Assembly (NCBI GenBank): GCA_025454975.1 | Contig: JALONK010000032.1 | Span: forward strand, 1-34,211 | Source of the DNA: Bacteroidia bacterium | Lineage (GTDB): Bacteria > Bacteroidota > Bacteroidia > UKL13-3 | Direction: 5' to 3' | DNA length: 34,211 nt | In this document: piece by piece, positions 2,356 through 34,211 of the stretch | Numbering within the stretch: the first letter of the stretch is position 1 | Layout of the letters: each line of letters opens with the position of its first letter | The notes under the pieces: model-generated | Database searches by the model: none | The model's input: the letters and a program-made list of their open reading frames with translations, nothing else | Told to the model about the DNA's origin: nothing | Translations under genes and position numbers: made by a program

Positions 2356-3915
2356 ATGAATAATACCCACATTCTTTGGGCCGATGATGAAATCGAGTTG
2401 TTAAAGCCTCATATCCTGTTTTTAAAAAACAAAGGCTATGAAGTAGATGAAGTAACCAGTGGTATTGATGCCATTGATGCTTGCAACAATAAGCCTTACG
2501 ATATAATTTTTTTAGATGAAAATATGCCGGGTATAACCGGGTTAGAGACGTTATCCCGCATCAAAGCCATTAAGCCTGACTTGCCCATTGTGATGATTAC
2601 CAAAAGTGAAGAAGAACACATTATGGAGGATGCCATTGGAAGTAAGATTGCCGACTATTTAATTAAACCGGTAAACTCTAACCAGATATTGTTATCCATA
2701 AAAAAGATTTTAGACAACAAACGATTGGTGAGTGAAAAAACAGCCCAAGGTTACCAGCAAGAATTCAGACAAATTGGTATGGAGTTGAATGATGATTTAA
2801 ACTTCGAGAGTTGGGTTAATTTATATAAAAAACTGGTGTACTGGGAATTAAATCTGGCATCAAGCAATGATACCGGAATGGATGAAATTTTGTTGATGCA
2901 AAAAAGTGAAGCTAATCGCGCTTGGACCAAGTTTATTAAAAATAATTATATCCAATTTTTAAAAAAGCCCAATGAACAAACACCTGTAATGAGTCAAACA
3001 GTGGTTCGTAAAAAGGTATTACCTGAATTAAAATCGGAAGTACCTGTATTTTTAATCATGCTAGATAACTTTCGTTTTGATCAATGGCGAGTAATACAGT
3101 CGCAGCTTAATGATTATTTCAGAACCGTATTAGAAGATACTTATTTAACTATTTTACCCACAACAACCCATTATGCACGTAATGCATTTTTTAGTGGAAT
3201 GATGCCCGGTGAAATTGCTAAACTATATCCTGATTTATGGGTTGATGAAGAGGAAAATGAAGGTAAAAACCTATATGAAGAAGAACTATTAGGCACACAA
3301 TTAAACAGATTGGGTTATAAAGAAAAATTCAGTTATACTAAGATTACCAATTTAGATAGCGGAAAACGTTTGGTTGACGATATCAATAATTTATTTAACA
3401 ACAAGTTTAATGTAATCGTTTACAATTTTGTTGATATGCTTAGTCATGCCCGAACCGAAATGAATGTAATGAAAGAACTGGCTGAAGATGAAGCCGCTTA
3501 CAGAAGTATAACAGCCAGTTGGTTTGAACATTCGCCTTTGTTTGAAGCCTTAAAAAAGATAGCAGCTAAAGGAGCCAAGGTAATTATTACTACCGATCAT
3601 GGCAGTATTCGGGTGCATGATGCAGTTAAGATTATTGGTGATAGAAGTACAAGTACTAACCTTCGTTACAAACAAGGTAAGAATTTAAGTTACCAGGAGA
3701 ATGAATTATTTACAATCAAAGATCCGGCAGATGCATTTTTACCAAAGGTAAATGTAAGTTCGAGGTATGTATTTGCTACTGAAAACAATTTTATGGCTTA
3801 TCCTAACAATTATAATTACCATGTAAATTTATATTCAAACTCATTTCAACATGGTGGCGTAAGTTTAGAGGAGATGATAGTACCTTTTATAGTTCTATCA
3901 GCGAAAGAAAACTAA
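2356..3915 (+). CDS. porX: PorX-type response regulator with PglZ domain
   Basis: This 519-residue two-domain protein begins with a CheY-like receiver domain. The acidic pocket is WADDE (D10, D11), the phosphoacceptor is D54 in IIFLDENMPG, the conserved Thr is in VMITKSE, and the conserved Lys is in DYLIKPV. After a helical linker (about 125-210) comes a PglZ domain of the alkaline-phosphatase superfamily. It starts at VPVFLIMLDNFRFDQW and includes LPTTTHYARNAFFSGMMPGE, FVDMLSHARTEM, IITTDHGS and a late FQHGGVSLEEMIVPF, supplying the metal-binding Asp, His and Thr residues. In Porphyromonas and Flavobacterium, PorX works with PorY and SigP to control the type IX secretion system, and its PglZ domain has phosphodiesterase activity. 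Architecture and length match that family closely. The gene is transcribed away from the HD gene. Confidence 0.92.
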   Translation: MNNTHILWADDEIELLKPHILFLKNKGYEVDEVTSGIDAIDACNNKPYDIIFLDENMPGITGLETLSRIKAIKPDLPIVMITKSEEEHIMEDAIGSKIADYLIKPVNSNQILLSIKKILDNKRLVSEKTAQGYQQEFRQIGMELNDDLNFESWVNLYKKLVYWELNLASSNDTGMDEILLMQKSEANRAWTKFIKNNYIQFLKKPNEQTPVMSQTVVRKKVLPELKSEVPVFLIMLDNFRFDQWRVIQSQLNDYFRTVLEDTYLTILPTTTHYARNAFFSGMMPGEIAKLYPDLWVDEEENEGKNLYEEELLGTQLNRLGYKEKFSYTKITNLDSGKRLVDDINNLFNNKFNVIVYNFVDMLSHARTEMNVMKELAEDEAAYRSITASWFEHSPLFEALKKIAAKGAKVIITTDHGSIRVHDAVKIIGDRSTSTNLRYKQGKNLSYQENELFTIKDPADAFLPKVNVSSRYVFATENNFMAYPNNYNYHVNLYSNSFQHGGVSLEEMIVPFIVLSAKEN

Positions 3916-4448: not shown

Positions 4449-6041
4449 ATGAGTACAGAAACAACAATAACTAAAAAGAAGAGCAAAAAAGAAACGGCCG
4501 AAAAGCCTATTGAAGTAATGTTATGGGATGCTGCCAATAAACTAAGAGGCAGTGTGGAACCGGCCGAGTATAAACACGTAGTATTAAGTTTAATATTTTT
4601 AAAGTTTGCAAGCGACAAGTTTGAGCAACACCGTGCTAAGTTAATTGCCGATGGTAAAGAAAAGTACATGGAAATGGCTGAGTTTTATAACAAAGACAAT
4701 GTATTCTTTTTAGAAGAAAACAGCCGTTGGAACTATTTAATTAAACGAGCCAAACAAAACGACCTTGCGCTGATTATTGATACCGCCTTACACACTATTG
4801 AAAAAAACAACAAAGCATTAAGAGGCGCATTGCCCGATAATTACTTCTCTCGTTTAGGATTAGATGTAACCAAATTGGCCTCTTTATTAGATACCATAAA
4901 CGATATTGATACCACCAAAGACCCACAAAACGATTTAGTTGGGCGTGTTTATGAATACTTTTTAAGCAAGTTTGCCTTGGCAGAAGGAAAAGGCAAAGGT
5001 GAATTTTACACCCCAAAAAGTATTGTAAACCTTATTGCCGAAATGATTGAACCCTACAAAGGAACCATTTACGACCCGGCTTGTGGTAGTGGTGGTATGT
5101 TTGTGCAAAGTATTAAGTTTATTGAAGCACACCATGGAAACAAAAAGGAAATTTCTATTTACGGACAAGAATACACCAACACCACTTATAAACTGGCTAA
5201 AATGAACTTGGCCATACGTGGCATTAGCGGGAATTTAGGCGAAAAAGCAGCCGACACTTTTTTAGACGACCAACACAAAGACTTAAAAGCCGACTTTATA
5301 ATGGCCAACCCACCTTTTAACCAAAAAGATTGGCGAGGCGAAAATGAATTGACAGACGACCCGCGTTGGTTAGGTTATGATGTGCCACCAAAAAGCAATG
5401 CAAACTATGGATGGATTTTAAACATGGTAAGCAAGTTAAGTGATAACGGTGTGGCCGGATTTATATTGGCCAATGGGGCATTAAGTGGTGGTGGCGAAGA
5501 ATATAAAATACGCAGGAAGTTGATTGAAAATGATTTGGTAGAAGCTATTGTTGTTTTACCTCGTGATATGTTCTACACAACAGATATTAGTGTTACACTT
5601 TGGATTATAAACAAAAACAAAAAGGCAAGAAAAGTTGTGCATGGTGATTTGATAAGAGATTATCGAAACCGTACTGGTGAGATATTATTTGTTGATTTGA
5701 GAAGATGGGGAACCGAATATGAGAAAATGTATATTGAGTTCATTCAAGAAGATATAAATAAAATAGTGAGAAACTACCACAACTGGCAACAAGCCGACTA
5801 CAAGAACAACTACAATAATGTGCCTGAGTATTGCTACTCTGCCAGTTTTGAAGAAATACAGGCAAACGATTTTTCGTTGGTGCCAAGCAAATACATTCAA
5901 TTTATTGACCGTGACAGTGAAATAGATTTTCACACAGAGATGAAACGCATTCAAAAGGATTTCAAAACCCTTTTGCAAGAAGAAAAGCAATCGCAGGAGC
6001 AATTGATTAACGCTTTTAAAACTTTGGGCTATGAGTTATAA
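4449..6041 (+). CDS. hsdM: Type I restriction-modification methyltransferase subunit HsdM
   Basis: HsdM transfers methyl groups from S-adenosylmethionine to adenine in the target chosen by HsdS, and is part of both the modification and the restriction complex. The 530-residue protein has the usual N-terminal helical domain (KPIEVMLWDAANKLRGSVEP, YKHVVLSLIFLKFASDKFEQ). It also has the GEFYTPKSIV approach, the SAM-binding motif DPACGSGGMF (about residue 209) and the N6-adenine catalytic motif NPPF (about residue 287). Length is normal for the family. It is the first gene inside the island, about 280 bp after the tRNA terminator; that gap shows nothing I can identify except presumed promoter sequence. 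The stop overlaps the hsdS start by 11 bp, indicating translational coupling. Confidence 0.96.
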   Translation: MSTETTITKKKSKKETAEKPIEVMLWDAANKLRGSVEPAEYKHVVLSLIFLKFASDKFEQHRAKLIADGKEKYMEMAEFYNKDNVFFLEENSRWNYLIKRAKQNDLALIIDTALHTIEKNNKALRGALPDNYFSRLGLDVTKLASLLDTINDIDTTKDPQNDLVGRVYEYFLSKFALAEGKGKGEFYTPKSIVNLIAEMIEPYKGTIYDPACGSGGMFVQSIKFIEAHHGNKKEISIYGQEYTNTTYKLAKMNLAIRGISGNLGEKAADTFLDDQHKDLKADFIMANPPFNQKDWRGENELTDDPRWLGYDVPPKSNANYGWILNMVSKLSDNGVAGFILANGALSGGGEEYKIRRKLIENDLVEAIVVLPRDMFYTTDISVTLWIINKNKKARKVVHGDLIRDYRNRTGEILFVDLRRWGTEYEKMYIEFIQEDINKIVRNYHNWQQADYKNNYNNVPEYCYSASFEEIQANDFSLVPSKYIQFIDRDSEIDFHTEMKRIQKDFKTLLQEEKQSQEQLINAFKTLGYEL

Positions 6042-32282: not shown

Positions 32283-33236
32283 ATGAGTAATGCCGGAATT
32301 CCATCGGTTGATTTAAACGATTTTATCAACGGAACCCCTGAACAAAAAATAGCATTCGTACAACAATTAGGTAAGGCGTATGAAGATATTGGATTTGTTG
32401 CCGTAAAAGGACATTTTTTAAGTGATGAATTAAGCCAAAATTTATATGCCCAGGTACAGCAATTTTACGGATTAGATTTAGAAAAAAAACATGCCTATGA
32501 GGTACCGGGGTTAGCCGGACAGCGAGGTTATACCGGATTTGGTAAAGAACATGCCAAAGGAAGAACTGAGGGTGATTTAAAGGAGTTTTGGCAATTTGGG
32601 CAATGGGTTGAAGATGGTGATGCAGTAAAAGCGGAATATCCCGACAACGTATCGGTGAGTGAATTACCAAACTTCAATAGTTTAGGTAAAGAAGCTTATA
32701 AAAAATTAGAAGAAACAGGAAAGTATATGTTGCGTGCGATAGCCTTATACTTAGGCTTGAACGAATTTTACTTTGACGAATTTATTCACAATGGAAATTC
32801 AATTTTACGTGCTATACATTACCCGCCTATCACCAACGAACCTAAAAGTGCAGTGAGGGCAGCCGAGCATGAAGACATTAATTTAATTACTTTATTGATG
32901 GGTGCATCTGCAGAAGGTTTAGAAGTATTAAATAAACAAAACGAATGGGTTGGTATTACAGCTTTACCTGATCAGTTGGTGGTTAACGTAGGCGATATGT
33001 TGCAACGATTAACCAACAATAAATTAAAATCAACCACACATCGAGTAGTAAATCCGCCACGTGAAAAATGGGGAACATCAAGATACAGTATTCCATTTTT
33101 TCTTCACCCGCGCAGCAGCATGAAACTTGACTGTTTAGCGGAATGTATTGATGCTGAACATCCCATACAGTATGAACCAATTACTGCCGGAGAATATTTA
33201 GATGAACGCTTAAGAGAAATTGGTTTAAAGAAATAA
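32283..33236 (+). CDS. Isopenicillin-N-synthase-like 2-oxoglutarate/Fe(II) dioxygenase
   Basis: The 317-residue protein belongs to the plant/bacterial IPNS-DIOX family of non-haem iron oxygenases. The N-terminal DIOX part has GIPSVDLNDFI and YEDIGFVAVKGH. The jelly-roll carries the iron triad H196-x-D198 in AAEHEDINLITLL and H253 in STTHRVVNPP. R267-x-S269 (SRYSIPFFLHP) binds 2-oxoglutarate. SILRAIHYPP precedes the triad as in relatives. Length and all key residues are intact, so it should be active; the substrate is unknown. It is a single gene with its own promoter and a strong terminator behind it, convergent with ssb. Confidence 0.9.
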   Translation: MSNAGIPSVDLNDFINGTPEQKIAFVQQLGKAYEDIGFVAVKGHFLSDELSQNLYAQVQQFYGLDLEKKHAYEVPGLAGQRGYTGFGKEHAKGRTEGDLKEFWQFGQWVEDGDAVKAEYPDNVSVSELPNFNSLGKEAYKKLEETGKYMLRAIALYLGLNEFYFDEFIHNGNSILRAIHYPPITNEPKSAVRAAEHEDINLITLLMGASAEGLEVLNKQNEWVGITALPDQLVVNVGDMLQRLTNNKLKSTTHRVVNPPREKWGTSRYSIPFFLHPRSSMKLDCLAECIDAEHPIQYEPITAGEYLDERLREIGLKK

Positions 33237-33271
33237 ATCAACCTTATATTTTAAGTATAACAAATTTTGAT

Positions 33272-33307
33272 AAAACCCACCACCGATAATTAAGTGGTGG
33301 GTTTTTT
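33272..33307. terminator. Bidirectional terminator between oxygenase and ssb genes
   Basis: AAAACCCACCAC (33272-33283) pairs perfectly with GTGGTGGGTTTT (33294-33305), with a 10 base loop and T6 on the plus strand. It serves both convergent genes. Confidence 0.9.
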
Positions 33308-33331
33308 ATAATCAAAAATAAACCGGTGCAA

Positions 33332-33676
33332 CTAATCAGTTCTTTTTTTACCAACTAATACAAATTCGTTTAACACGATTTCGGTGCTATACCGTTTAAC
33401 CCCTTCTTTGTCGGTATATGTATTGTTGGTTAATTTTCCATCAATCACAACTTCACTTCCTTTTGTTAATATTTTAGCCGCTAATTCGGCTTGTTTACCC
33501 CAAGCAGTAATGTTGTGCCATTGGGTATCTTTCACTTGTTCGCCCGATTCATTTCGGTACGATTCATTAATGGCTACAGAAAATTTAGCCAGTTTTTTAC
33601 CGCTCTTTAACTCCTTGAGTTCCGGGCTTTGGCCAAGGTGACCAATAAGCCTCACGCTGTTTCGTAAATTGTTCAT
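33332..33676 (-). CDS. ssb: Short single-stranded DNA-binding protein
   Basis: SSB coats single-stranded DNA in replication and repair. The 114-residue protein is essentially just the OB fold: LRNSVRLIGHLGQSPELKEL, KLAKFSVAINESYRN, TQWHNITAWGKQAELAAKIL with the conserved Trp residues, KGSEVVIDGKLTNNTY and KRYSTEIVLNEFVLVG. It ends KKRTD right after the fold. The flexible linker and acidic DDDIPF-like tip that recruit partner proteins in canonical SSBs are absent. It is probably a secondary or minimal SSB, with a full-length one elsewhere. The gene ends near a strong bidirectional terminator. Confidence 0.93.
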   Translation of the reverse strand: MNNLRNSVRLIGHLGQSPELKELKSGKKLAKFSVAINESYRNESGEQVKDTQWHNITAWGKQAELAAKILTKGSEVVIDGKLTNNTYTDKEGVKRYSTEIVLNEFVLVGKKRTD

Positions 33677-33853
33677 ACGTTATGGTTATTATTTGAATAA
33701 TGATTTATGGTGAATCGAAATTGCAACTTAATTACTAACCAAATCGTATTAAATCCGATTAGTTACGTAAATAAACGAGAGAAGAAATTAGCGCATCACA
33801 ACAAACATGTTTAATTTAAACAAATGCATAAAATGAAACGCTAACAGTTGAGC

Positions 33854-34211
33854 CACTTCGAGTGATTGCTGCAAAGTCTACGAATGATCTAATCGTACCG
33901 AAAAGCCACTTCGAGTGATTGCTGAAAAGACCTGCGCATGGCGCAATCGTATCGAGAAGTCACTTCGAGTGATTGCTGCAAAGGCTACGAATGATCTAAT
34001 CGTACCGAAAAGCCACTTCGAGTGATTACTGCAAAGCCTGAGCGCGGTGCAATCGTATCGAGAAGCCACTTCGAGTGATTGCTGCAAAGACCTGCGTGTG
34101 GTGCAATCGTACCGAGAAGTCGCTTCGAGTGATTGCTGCAAAGGCTTTCGTGTGGAGCAATCGTATCGAGAAGTCGCTTCGAGTGATTGCTGCAAAGGCT
34201 TTCGTGTGGAG
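33854..34211. repeat. Tandem array of 53-54 bp hairpin-forming repeats
   Basis: Seven copies begin at 33854, 33907, 33961, 34014, 34067, 34121 and 34175; the last is cut by the window end. Each opens with CACTTCGAGTG (a 4 bp stem with a TCG loop; the last two copies read CGCTTCGAGTG), followed by GATTGCTG. In several copies GATTGCT pairs with a downstream AGCAATC or GCAATC arm, and CTTC with GAAG, so each unit can fold into an imperfect hairpin. Two middle variants occur: copies 1 and 3 have CTACGAATGATCTAATCG, the others have forms like CCTGCGCATGGCGCAATCG. There are no unique spacers and no cas genes nearby. Confidence 0.9.

Follow-up and report, generated by a model that had tools for sequence, protein, structure and literature searches.

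Head-to-tail array of a dispersed REP-like palindromic element in a Bacteroidia genome, probably formed by local amplification

The window analyzed here comprises 34,211 bases and represents the entire contig C7 of a genome assembly of 3,435,668 bases in 83 contigs. The end of the window is occupied by a tandem repeat array that is located upstream of an SSB gene and beyond a gene encoding a 2OG-Fe(II) oxygenase. These two genes are convergently oriented, and a terminator-like hairpin followed by a run of T residues was observed between them. TRF assigned to the array a period of 54, 6.7 copies, 83% matches and a score of 424, and a reading of nearly the same stretch with a period of 107 yielded a score of 499. 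The spacings between the anchors of consecutive copies are 53, 54, 53, 53, 54 and 54. The first-pass annotation of this sequence had described a 53-54 bp tandem array of seven or more copies, and both the TRF result and the anchor spacings agree with this description in specifying six full copies and a partial seventh. The coordinates of the copies and of further features are compiled in Table 1.

Table 1. Positions of the array, its copies and additional features in the window and in other sequence stretches
Feature	Sequence	Position	Strand	Remark
REP-like units, head-to-tail, period 53-54 bp	window	33851..34211	minus	cut by the contig end; frame CTTCTCGATAC..ACTCGAAG
Copy 1	window	33854..33905	minus	variant centre CTACGAATGATCTAATCGTACC
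Copy 2	window	33907..33959	minus	12/12 counted stem pairs intact
Copy 3	window	33961..34012	minus	variant centre; 98% identity to copy 1
Copy 4	window	34014..34065	minus	1 stem pair broken
Copy 5	window	34067..34119	minus	1 stem pair broken
Copy 6	window	34121..34173	minus	12/12 counted stem pairs intact; equals a unit at the start of C17
Copy 7	window	34175..34211	minus	partial; contig end
Terminator-like hairpin and T run	window	33273-33306		
RT_UG13a gene	L044	690-2504	minus	
Identical 100-nt direct repeats	L043	4288-4387 / 5690-5789		flank the DUF3800 gene
MKTI element	L043	4383-4650		
MKTI element	L043	~5790-6030		
MKTI element	L044	~2760-2560	minus	
Third dispersed repeat	L043	~3180-3290		also in the flanks of L205, L206, L203 and L209
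Tandem arrays of the shorter relative	L333	433-635		genome G026
Tandem arrays of the shorter relative	L334	61-230		genome G026

The existence of two unit types, with copies 1 and 3 set against the rest, was likewise borne out. Copies 1 and 3, which possess a centre and a right arm of their own, share 98% identity with each other and 75-83% with the other four full copies, which are mutually 83-91% identical. When up to four mismatches were allowed, the variant core was detected only in copies 1 and 3 among the window and seven other stretches of the same genome that were scanned. Judged by these identities, copies 1 and 3 are evidently local duplicates, and the same applies to unit pairs on contig C4 that are 100% and 96% identical at a higher-order spacing. 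The copying of a two-unit block (copies 1 and 2 giving rise to copies 3 and 4) would explain the resemblance of copy 3 to copy 1, but the identity between copies 2 and 4 reaches only 87%. The array ends at the last base of the window because contig C7 ends there. The last 82 nt of C7 are identical to the first 82 nt of contig C17 (minus strand), on which further units and partner hairpins are present. Because of this common sequence and the additional units on C17, the two parts most likely represent one larger array that was split by the assembly, with a join that we infer from the terminal identity, in agreement with the earlier proposal that the array continues past the window. Such repeats account for assembly breaks at these places.

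Three other identities of the repeat were rejected. The unit lengths of 53 and 54 are not multiples of three, and the reading frame therefore shifts between units, which argues against a protein-coding repeat; a 105-aa open reading frame covering the array on the minus strand was taken as incidental. A search of positions 33200-34211 against Rfam 15 yielded seven matches up to an E-value of 1, all of which are located at 33205-33366 and remain under the gathering scores, and none of which falls on the array. A CRISPR array was dismissed, since there are no unique spacers and the units adjoin with 3 nt between the frames. Additionally, a BLAST search with the array gave no match in 72,556 plasmid records.

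Each unit, read on the minus strand, specifies a hairpin whose stem-loop is enclosed by the fixed frame halves CTTCTCGATAC and ACTCGAAG. The nested inverted repeats that had been ascribed to every copy were only partly recovered: copies 2 and 6 retain every pair of the outer inverted repeat CTTCGA..GATTGC / GCAATC..TCGAGAAG, copies 4 and 5 contain one broken pair each, and copies 1 and 3 show three broken pairs and one wobble, while the inner palindrome differs from copy to copy. In 31 units of the genome, 341 out of 372 stem cells are Watson-Crick pairs, 14 are G-T or T-G wobbles and 17 are broken; shifting the 3' arm by one to three places reduced the Watson-Crick fraction to 0.6-36%. Covariation was expected among these 31 units and was not found beyond a single unit with a compensated double change. 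The arms have column conservation values of 0.97 and 0.94 and the centre has one of 0.75, and recent common descent gives this conservation of the arms as well. Folding of the entire window array as RNA resulted in a z-score of -1.54, with 6 of 100 shuffled sequences being equally good, and DNA folding of the full units gave z-scores of -2.93 for one of the six and of +0.10 to -1.24 for the other five. These data suggest that the hairpin is drifting within the array, and that most copies are now doing so.

Copies of the element are dispersed in the genome. A BLAST search with the array provided 15 matches on the seven contigs C7, C17, C4, C69, C36, C66 and C60 (37 bases only on the latter), and the 12-mer CTTCGAGTGATT occurs 27 times, as opposed to zero occurrences of the reversed control. 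Contig C4 contains a second long array of composite structure, C36 and C66 contain one isolated unit each, and C69 carries two adjoining units that are very different from each other as well as a unit and a partner at two more places. This partner represents another hairpin type that points in the opposite direction at a distance of 30-34 nt in the four cases measured, and it combines the outer frame of the unit with a different stem. One unit-partner pair from C69 folded as DNA reached -26.6 kcal/mol versus a shuffle mean of -11.0 (z-score -6.11), and the partner hairpin alone gave a z-score of -3.77 (DNA fold). The partner reads CATCTC..CTCGATG in both matched copies on C4 and CTTCTC..CTCGAAG in two of the three copies on C17 and in both copies on C69, which is a compensated change; the third C17 copy is half changed. 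The dispersed copies, the second array and the class-wide distribution of the same hairpin frame described below sustain the initial suggestion of a REP-like dispersed family that has expanded at this locus, and the proposed search for single dispersed units was answered by those on C36 and C66.

The distribution of the family was determined with a search pattern consisting of the exact halves CTTCTCGATAC and ACTCGAAG with 12-42 nt between them. The exact frame was detected in 12 of 58 relatives, with the own genome counted, and in 17 of 395 genomes of the phylum, namely the own genome and 16 of 97 others of its class, whereas none of the 297 genomes from other classes gave a match; the reversed frame was absent from both the 58-relative and the 395-genome search. 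At least 118 stretches with the frame are present in named genomes, and 80 of them (L080-L159), among the matches listed, were included in the analysis of named loci. These 80 loci belong mostly to Flavobacteriia (Flavobacterium, Chryseobacterium, Lacinutrix, Polaribacter, Tenacibaculum, Lutibacter, Kordia, Aquimarina, Maribacter and others) and additionally to a few metagenome-assembled genomes labelled Peribacteria, Dojkabacteria, Chlorobiota, Fibrobacteria and Dehalococcoidia and to one Pleomorphomonas, in which the match is almost devoid of a stem and probably due to chance. As a separate observation, eight stretches of viral contigs (L304-L311) carry the exact frame.

In the named genomes, the same frame encloses different inner stems that are nevertheless complementary. 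The mean stem at the ends of the insert is 5.18 bp in 147 distinct instances (L050-L159; eight from the own genome) and 1.57 bp after shuffling. An inner stem of at least 5 bp was present in 57 of the 80 named loci (one instance per locus), compared with a mean of 1.3% (maximum 6.3%) in shuffled sequences and of 14.6% (maximum 23.8%) when left and right halves of different elements were combined. Moreover, the outermost two bases on each side of the frame were left free in a scan of the hairpin foot, and the 123 elements obtained were distributed over CT/AG (77), GT/AC (34), CA/TG (4), AT/AT (2), GA/TC (1) and not fully paired combinations (5), where the choice of loci favours the CT/AG class and not the other classes. 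The first foot pair is Watson-Crick in 119 of these 123 elements, versus a mean of 67 and a maximum of 82 in shuffles. Across the family, the outermost bases of the frame vary as compensated pairs, and the hairpin is conserved between species by covariation of stem and foot.

Further traits became apparent from the flanks of the elements. The frame is followed by the tag TGAC in 135 of 163 elements, compared with two elements in shuffled loci. A stricter scan of the named loci revealed TGAC in 105 of 123 cases, and the next base is G or A in 101 of these 105, corresponding to YGTCA on the other strand. Most tags of the own genome read TGGC or CGGC, and few read TGAC or CGAC. The family occurs as single hairpins, inverted pairs or clusters in intergenic DNA. 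Neighbouring elements within 200 bp in the 80 named loci comprised 29 pairs with tags outside (HH), 25 in the same direction (at least 28 nt apart) and 15 with tags inside. Among 21 dimers with tags outside, several of which are near-copies from one contig so that the counts are not independent events, the first pair is kept inside both hairpins in 20, and the feet are unlike in 19 and the same in 2, most often with one C foot and one G foot; the pairing is therefore kept within each element and not between partners. With respect to genomic position, 20 of the 163 elements lie inside mechanically called open reading frames, 21 at locus edges and 122 between open reading frames. The intergenic elements are located between tandem (61), convergent (51) or divergent (10) genes, i.e. 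50, 41.8 and 8.2%, versus 58.3, 21.2 and 20.6% for random intergenic points; because of clusters and mechanical open reading frames, this convergent excess and divergent deficit of the kind reported for REPs is regarded as a trend only.

These data bear on the possibility that the array is kept for a working RNA or DNA structure, such as a transcript-end stabilizer, an insulator or a protein-binding site upstream of the SSB gene. Such a role would be consistent with the covariation of the family hairpin across species and with the fold of the complete inverted pair far above shuffles, but five of the six single window units fold no better than shuffles, the whole array stays close to them, only one compensated change was seen in 31 units, and no element was seen near the oxygenase or SSB genes in the loci of genus relatives. 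We therefore regard a maintained structure as very unlikely. The oxygenase part was matched in all eight genus relatives, and the SSB part, where matched, is located elsewhere. A clean empty site was sought in these loci and none was obtained, because the two genes are not neighbours in the relatives. The loci with the neighbouring genes contained no frame element or array save one loose match inside the oxygenase gene of L293, which was taken as chance. The first-pass annotation had interpreted hairpins persisting through variation as a structure under selection; this reasoning fits the family across species, and it does not hold for the present array, in view of the single compensated unit and the 17 broken pairs among the 31 units of the genome. 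Stems broken as often as preserved, combined with a lack of other copies in the genome, had been named as the opposite outcome: breaks are indeed common, and other copies exist.

The head-to-tail units are connected by the spacerless joint ACTCGAAG-NNN-CTTCTCGATAC, which occurs 17 times in the genome and is used at the three loci C4, C7/C17 and C69. This joint has the structure element-NNN-element, with the C of the tag forming the first base of the next unit. It was detected in none of 394 other genomes of the class when one mismatch was allowed, and the exact joint is so far known only from this genome. Relaxing the limit to three mismatches in a set of 38 genomes that belong to the genus or bear the element yielded 23 matches in 15 of them, versus 12 for the reversed control; every match differed from the joint at two or three positions. 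In G026, a member of the same family, two such loose joints reside in a 2.9-copy tandem array of 70 bp at a contig end, whose unit is a shorter relative of the element (GTCACTTCGAG..TCGAGAAG), and a third is part of a two-copy 48-bp repeat on another contig. Tandem growth has therefore occurred elsewhere in the family as well.

Taken as a whole, the array is probably the result of local head-to-tail amplification of a dispersed REP-like palindromic element rather than an arrangement preserved on account of its structure, and it most likely lacks a separate function. By analogy with REPs, the family would be mobile, and the element would once have moved as folded single-stranded DNA by means of an enzyme that acts in trans or has since been lost. 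Replication slippage or unequal exchange, at times involving blocks of units, may then have multiplied one hairpin in this lineage, and drift of most array copies would have followed the amplification. Slippage alone does not predict the shared joint at three loci, unless one ancestral tandem copy is common to all of them. An element that still moves, or did so until recently, and that attaches exactly at the tag of another copy was also considered, with the array representing a series of insertions. This would explain why every head-to-tail joint is built as element-NNN-element with the C of the tag opening the next unit, and why the joint recurs at three loci, on C69 even between two very different units. 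However, it has no counterpart in the 394 other genomes, adjacent units of the window have a common type of inner stem and not unrelated ones, and the Y1_Tnp searches revealed no enzyme, so that serial insertion is unlikely. A broader combination, in which the frame marks class-wide mobile palindromes recognized as folded single-stranded DNA, dimers have unlike feet and tag-directed serial joining built the arrays, is rather doubtful. If it were true, the unlike feet would let the enzyme distinguish the left from the right partner, and spacerless arrays would have arisen in this lineage next to accessory genes.

The transposase family Y1_Tnp (PF01797) had no match in the own genome, which is 98.36% complete, although it is present in 48 of 58 relatives and in 17 of 22 element-bearing genomes searched via the named loci. 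A loose scan located a frame element in one of 60 Y1_Tnp loci (L220), and a scan requiring a 5-bp inner stem in one of 77 partly overlapping loci (L270 of G053, approximately 1.2 kb from the gene). These figures refer to a part of the matches (30 loci per search and wider stretches) and to Y1_Tnp as the only transposase family. Six loci with four genes carrying the subclass 2.6 motif, which was taken from the consulted part of PMC6006769, in genomes with the frame family or its relatives, had no frame element nearby. In the loci examined, linkage to a dedicated Y1 transposase was thus essentially negative. A RAYT-linked GTAG REP was rejected as the identity of the element, since the GTAG tag is absent and PF01797 is missing from the genome.

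The closest resemblance was noted to the CGTC-tagged REP super-family of Di Nocera et al. 2013 (PMC3733652), which according to the sections consulted covers five phyla including Bacteroidetes and comprises CGTC-like REPs without a known transposase. As described in these sections, its members are short palindromes dispersed in intergenic places, as seen here, with a YGTC tag at one end (CGTC, often TGTC; also CCTC), mostly arranged as inverted pairs with tags outside and in several families with unlike partners, and without a linked transposase, a trait mirrored here for Y1_Tnp. The four published CGTC families have, in the same sections, stems of 8-9 bp that open with complementary AT, loops of 4-5 nt and a CCA-like tail, whereas most elements of the present family open with a C-G or G-C pair, the frame contains a 2-nt bulge, the inserts measure 12-42 nt and the loops vary. 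Head-to-tail dimers are described there as negligible, whereas the units of the present genome are tiled without spacer. GTAG REPs, BIMEs and REPINs with a RAYT (TnpA-REP) are similar in their tagged hairpins, inverted dimers and clusters, as far as the parts of PMC6006769 and PMC3733652 consulted indicate, but differ by the GTAG tag and by the Y1 transposase, which is absent from this genome and almost never found beside the elements elsewhere. Likewise, the structures flanking TnpA-Y1 of subclass 2.6 (RAYT group 5) are described in the consulted part of PMC6006769 as atypical non-GTAG hairpins of Bacteroidetes with further genomic copies. A minisatellite or VNTR shares the head-to-tail imperfect units and higher-order blocks, whereas the unit here is itself a palindrome that is dispersed and belongs to a class-wide family. 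The best reading is that the family is REP-like and of the CGTC kind, resembling but not matching the published CGTC-tagged families, from which it is set apart by their descriptions. It is probably undescribed, as far as searches confined to open-access text can show. The family represents a large and easily recognized set in Bacteroidota with a clear frame, a covarying foot and dimers of unlike partners, and it makes the search for an enzyme, as a gene tracking the frame across species, directly testable.

The repeats on other contigs are accompanied by accessory genes. DUF3800 and PIN_8 genes are located beyond the C4 array, and a gene for the defence-type reverse transcriptase RT_UG13a (765.7 bits) beyond the C17 part. 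RT_UG13a is of an uncharacterized-group type; relatives that are 45% identical reside on Leptospira plasmids, and RT relatives were obtained from 7 plasmid records. The array could be envisaged as a non-coding RNA partner of this reverse transcriptase, which lies approximately 340 bp beyond the C17 part and gives a strong match, since abstracts describe the use of an adjacent structured RNA by some DRT systems. This is scarcely credible, because the array that the same units form on C4 has urocanase, DUF3800 and PIN_8 genes as neighbours and single copies occur elsewhere, and because the frame is present in many genomes whereas the reverse transcriptase (E-value up to 1e-60) was found in none of the 394 other genomes of the class.

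The DUF3800 gene is flanked by identical direct repeats of 100 nt, as if exchanged by recombination. The arrays might accordingly act as recombination seams that swap accessory genes, given that each of these repeats consists of a unit, a spacer and half a partner, and that, at three places where repeat copies end, a common leader element and an accessory gene (DUF3800, PIN_8 or RT_UG13a) come next. However, these are three cases from one genome, homologous recombination between any repeats gives the same outcome and no clean empty site was seen, which makes this role highly improbable. This leader belongs to a second type of dispersed element, which measures 100-270 bp, contains a short open reading frame opening with MKTI and has 12 matches in the genome (L198-L209); the three copies listed in Table 1 follow repeat units and precede the DUF3800, PIN_8 and RT_UG13a genes, and the element looks like a mobile leader. 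Finally, a third dispersed repeat with the sequence tcgctcgttcctcgctgtgggctttccgt..ccatccctaagccgg or ttttttcgtgcctcaaaaaagg.. was observed beside the arrays and leaders.
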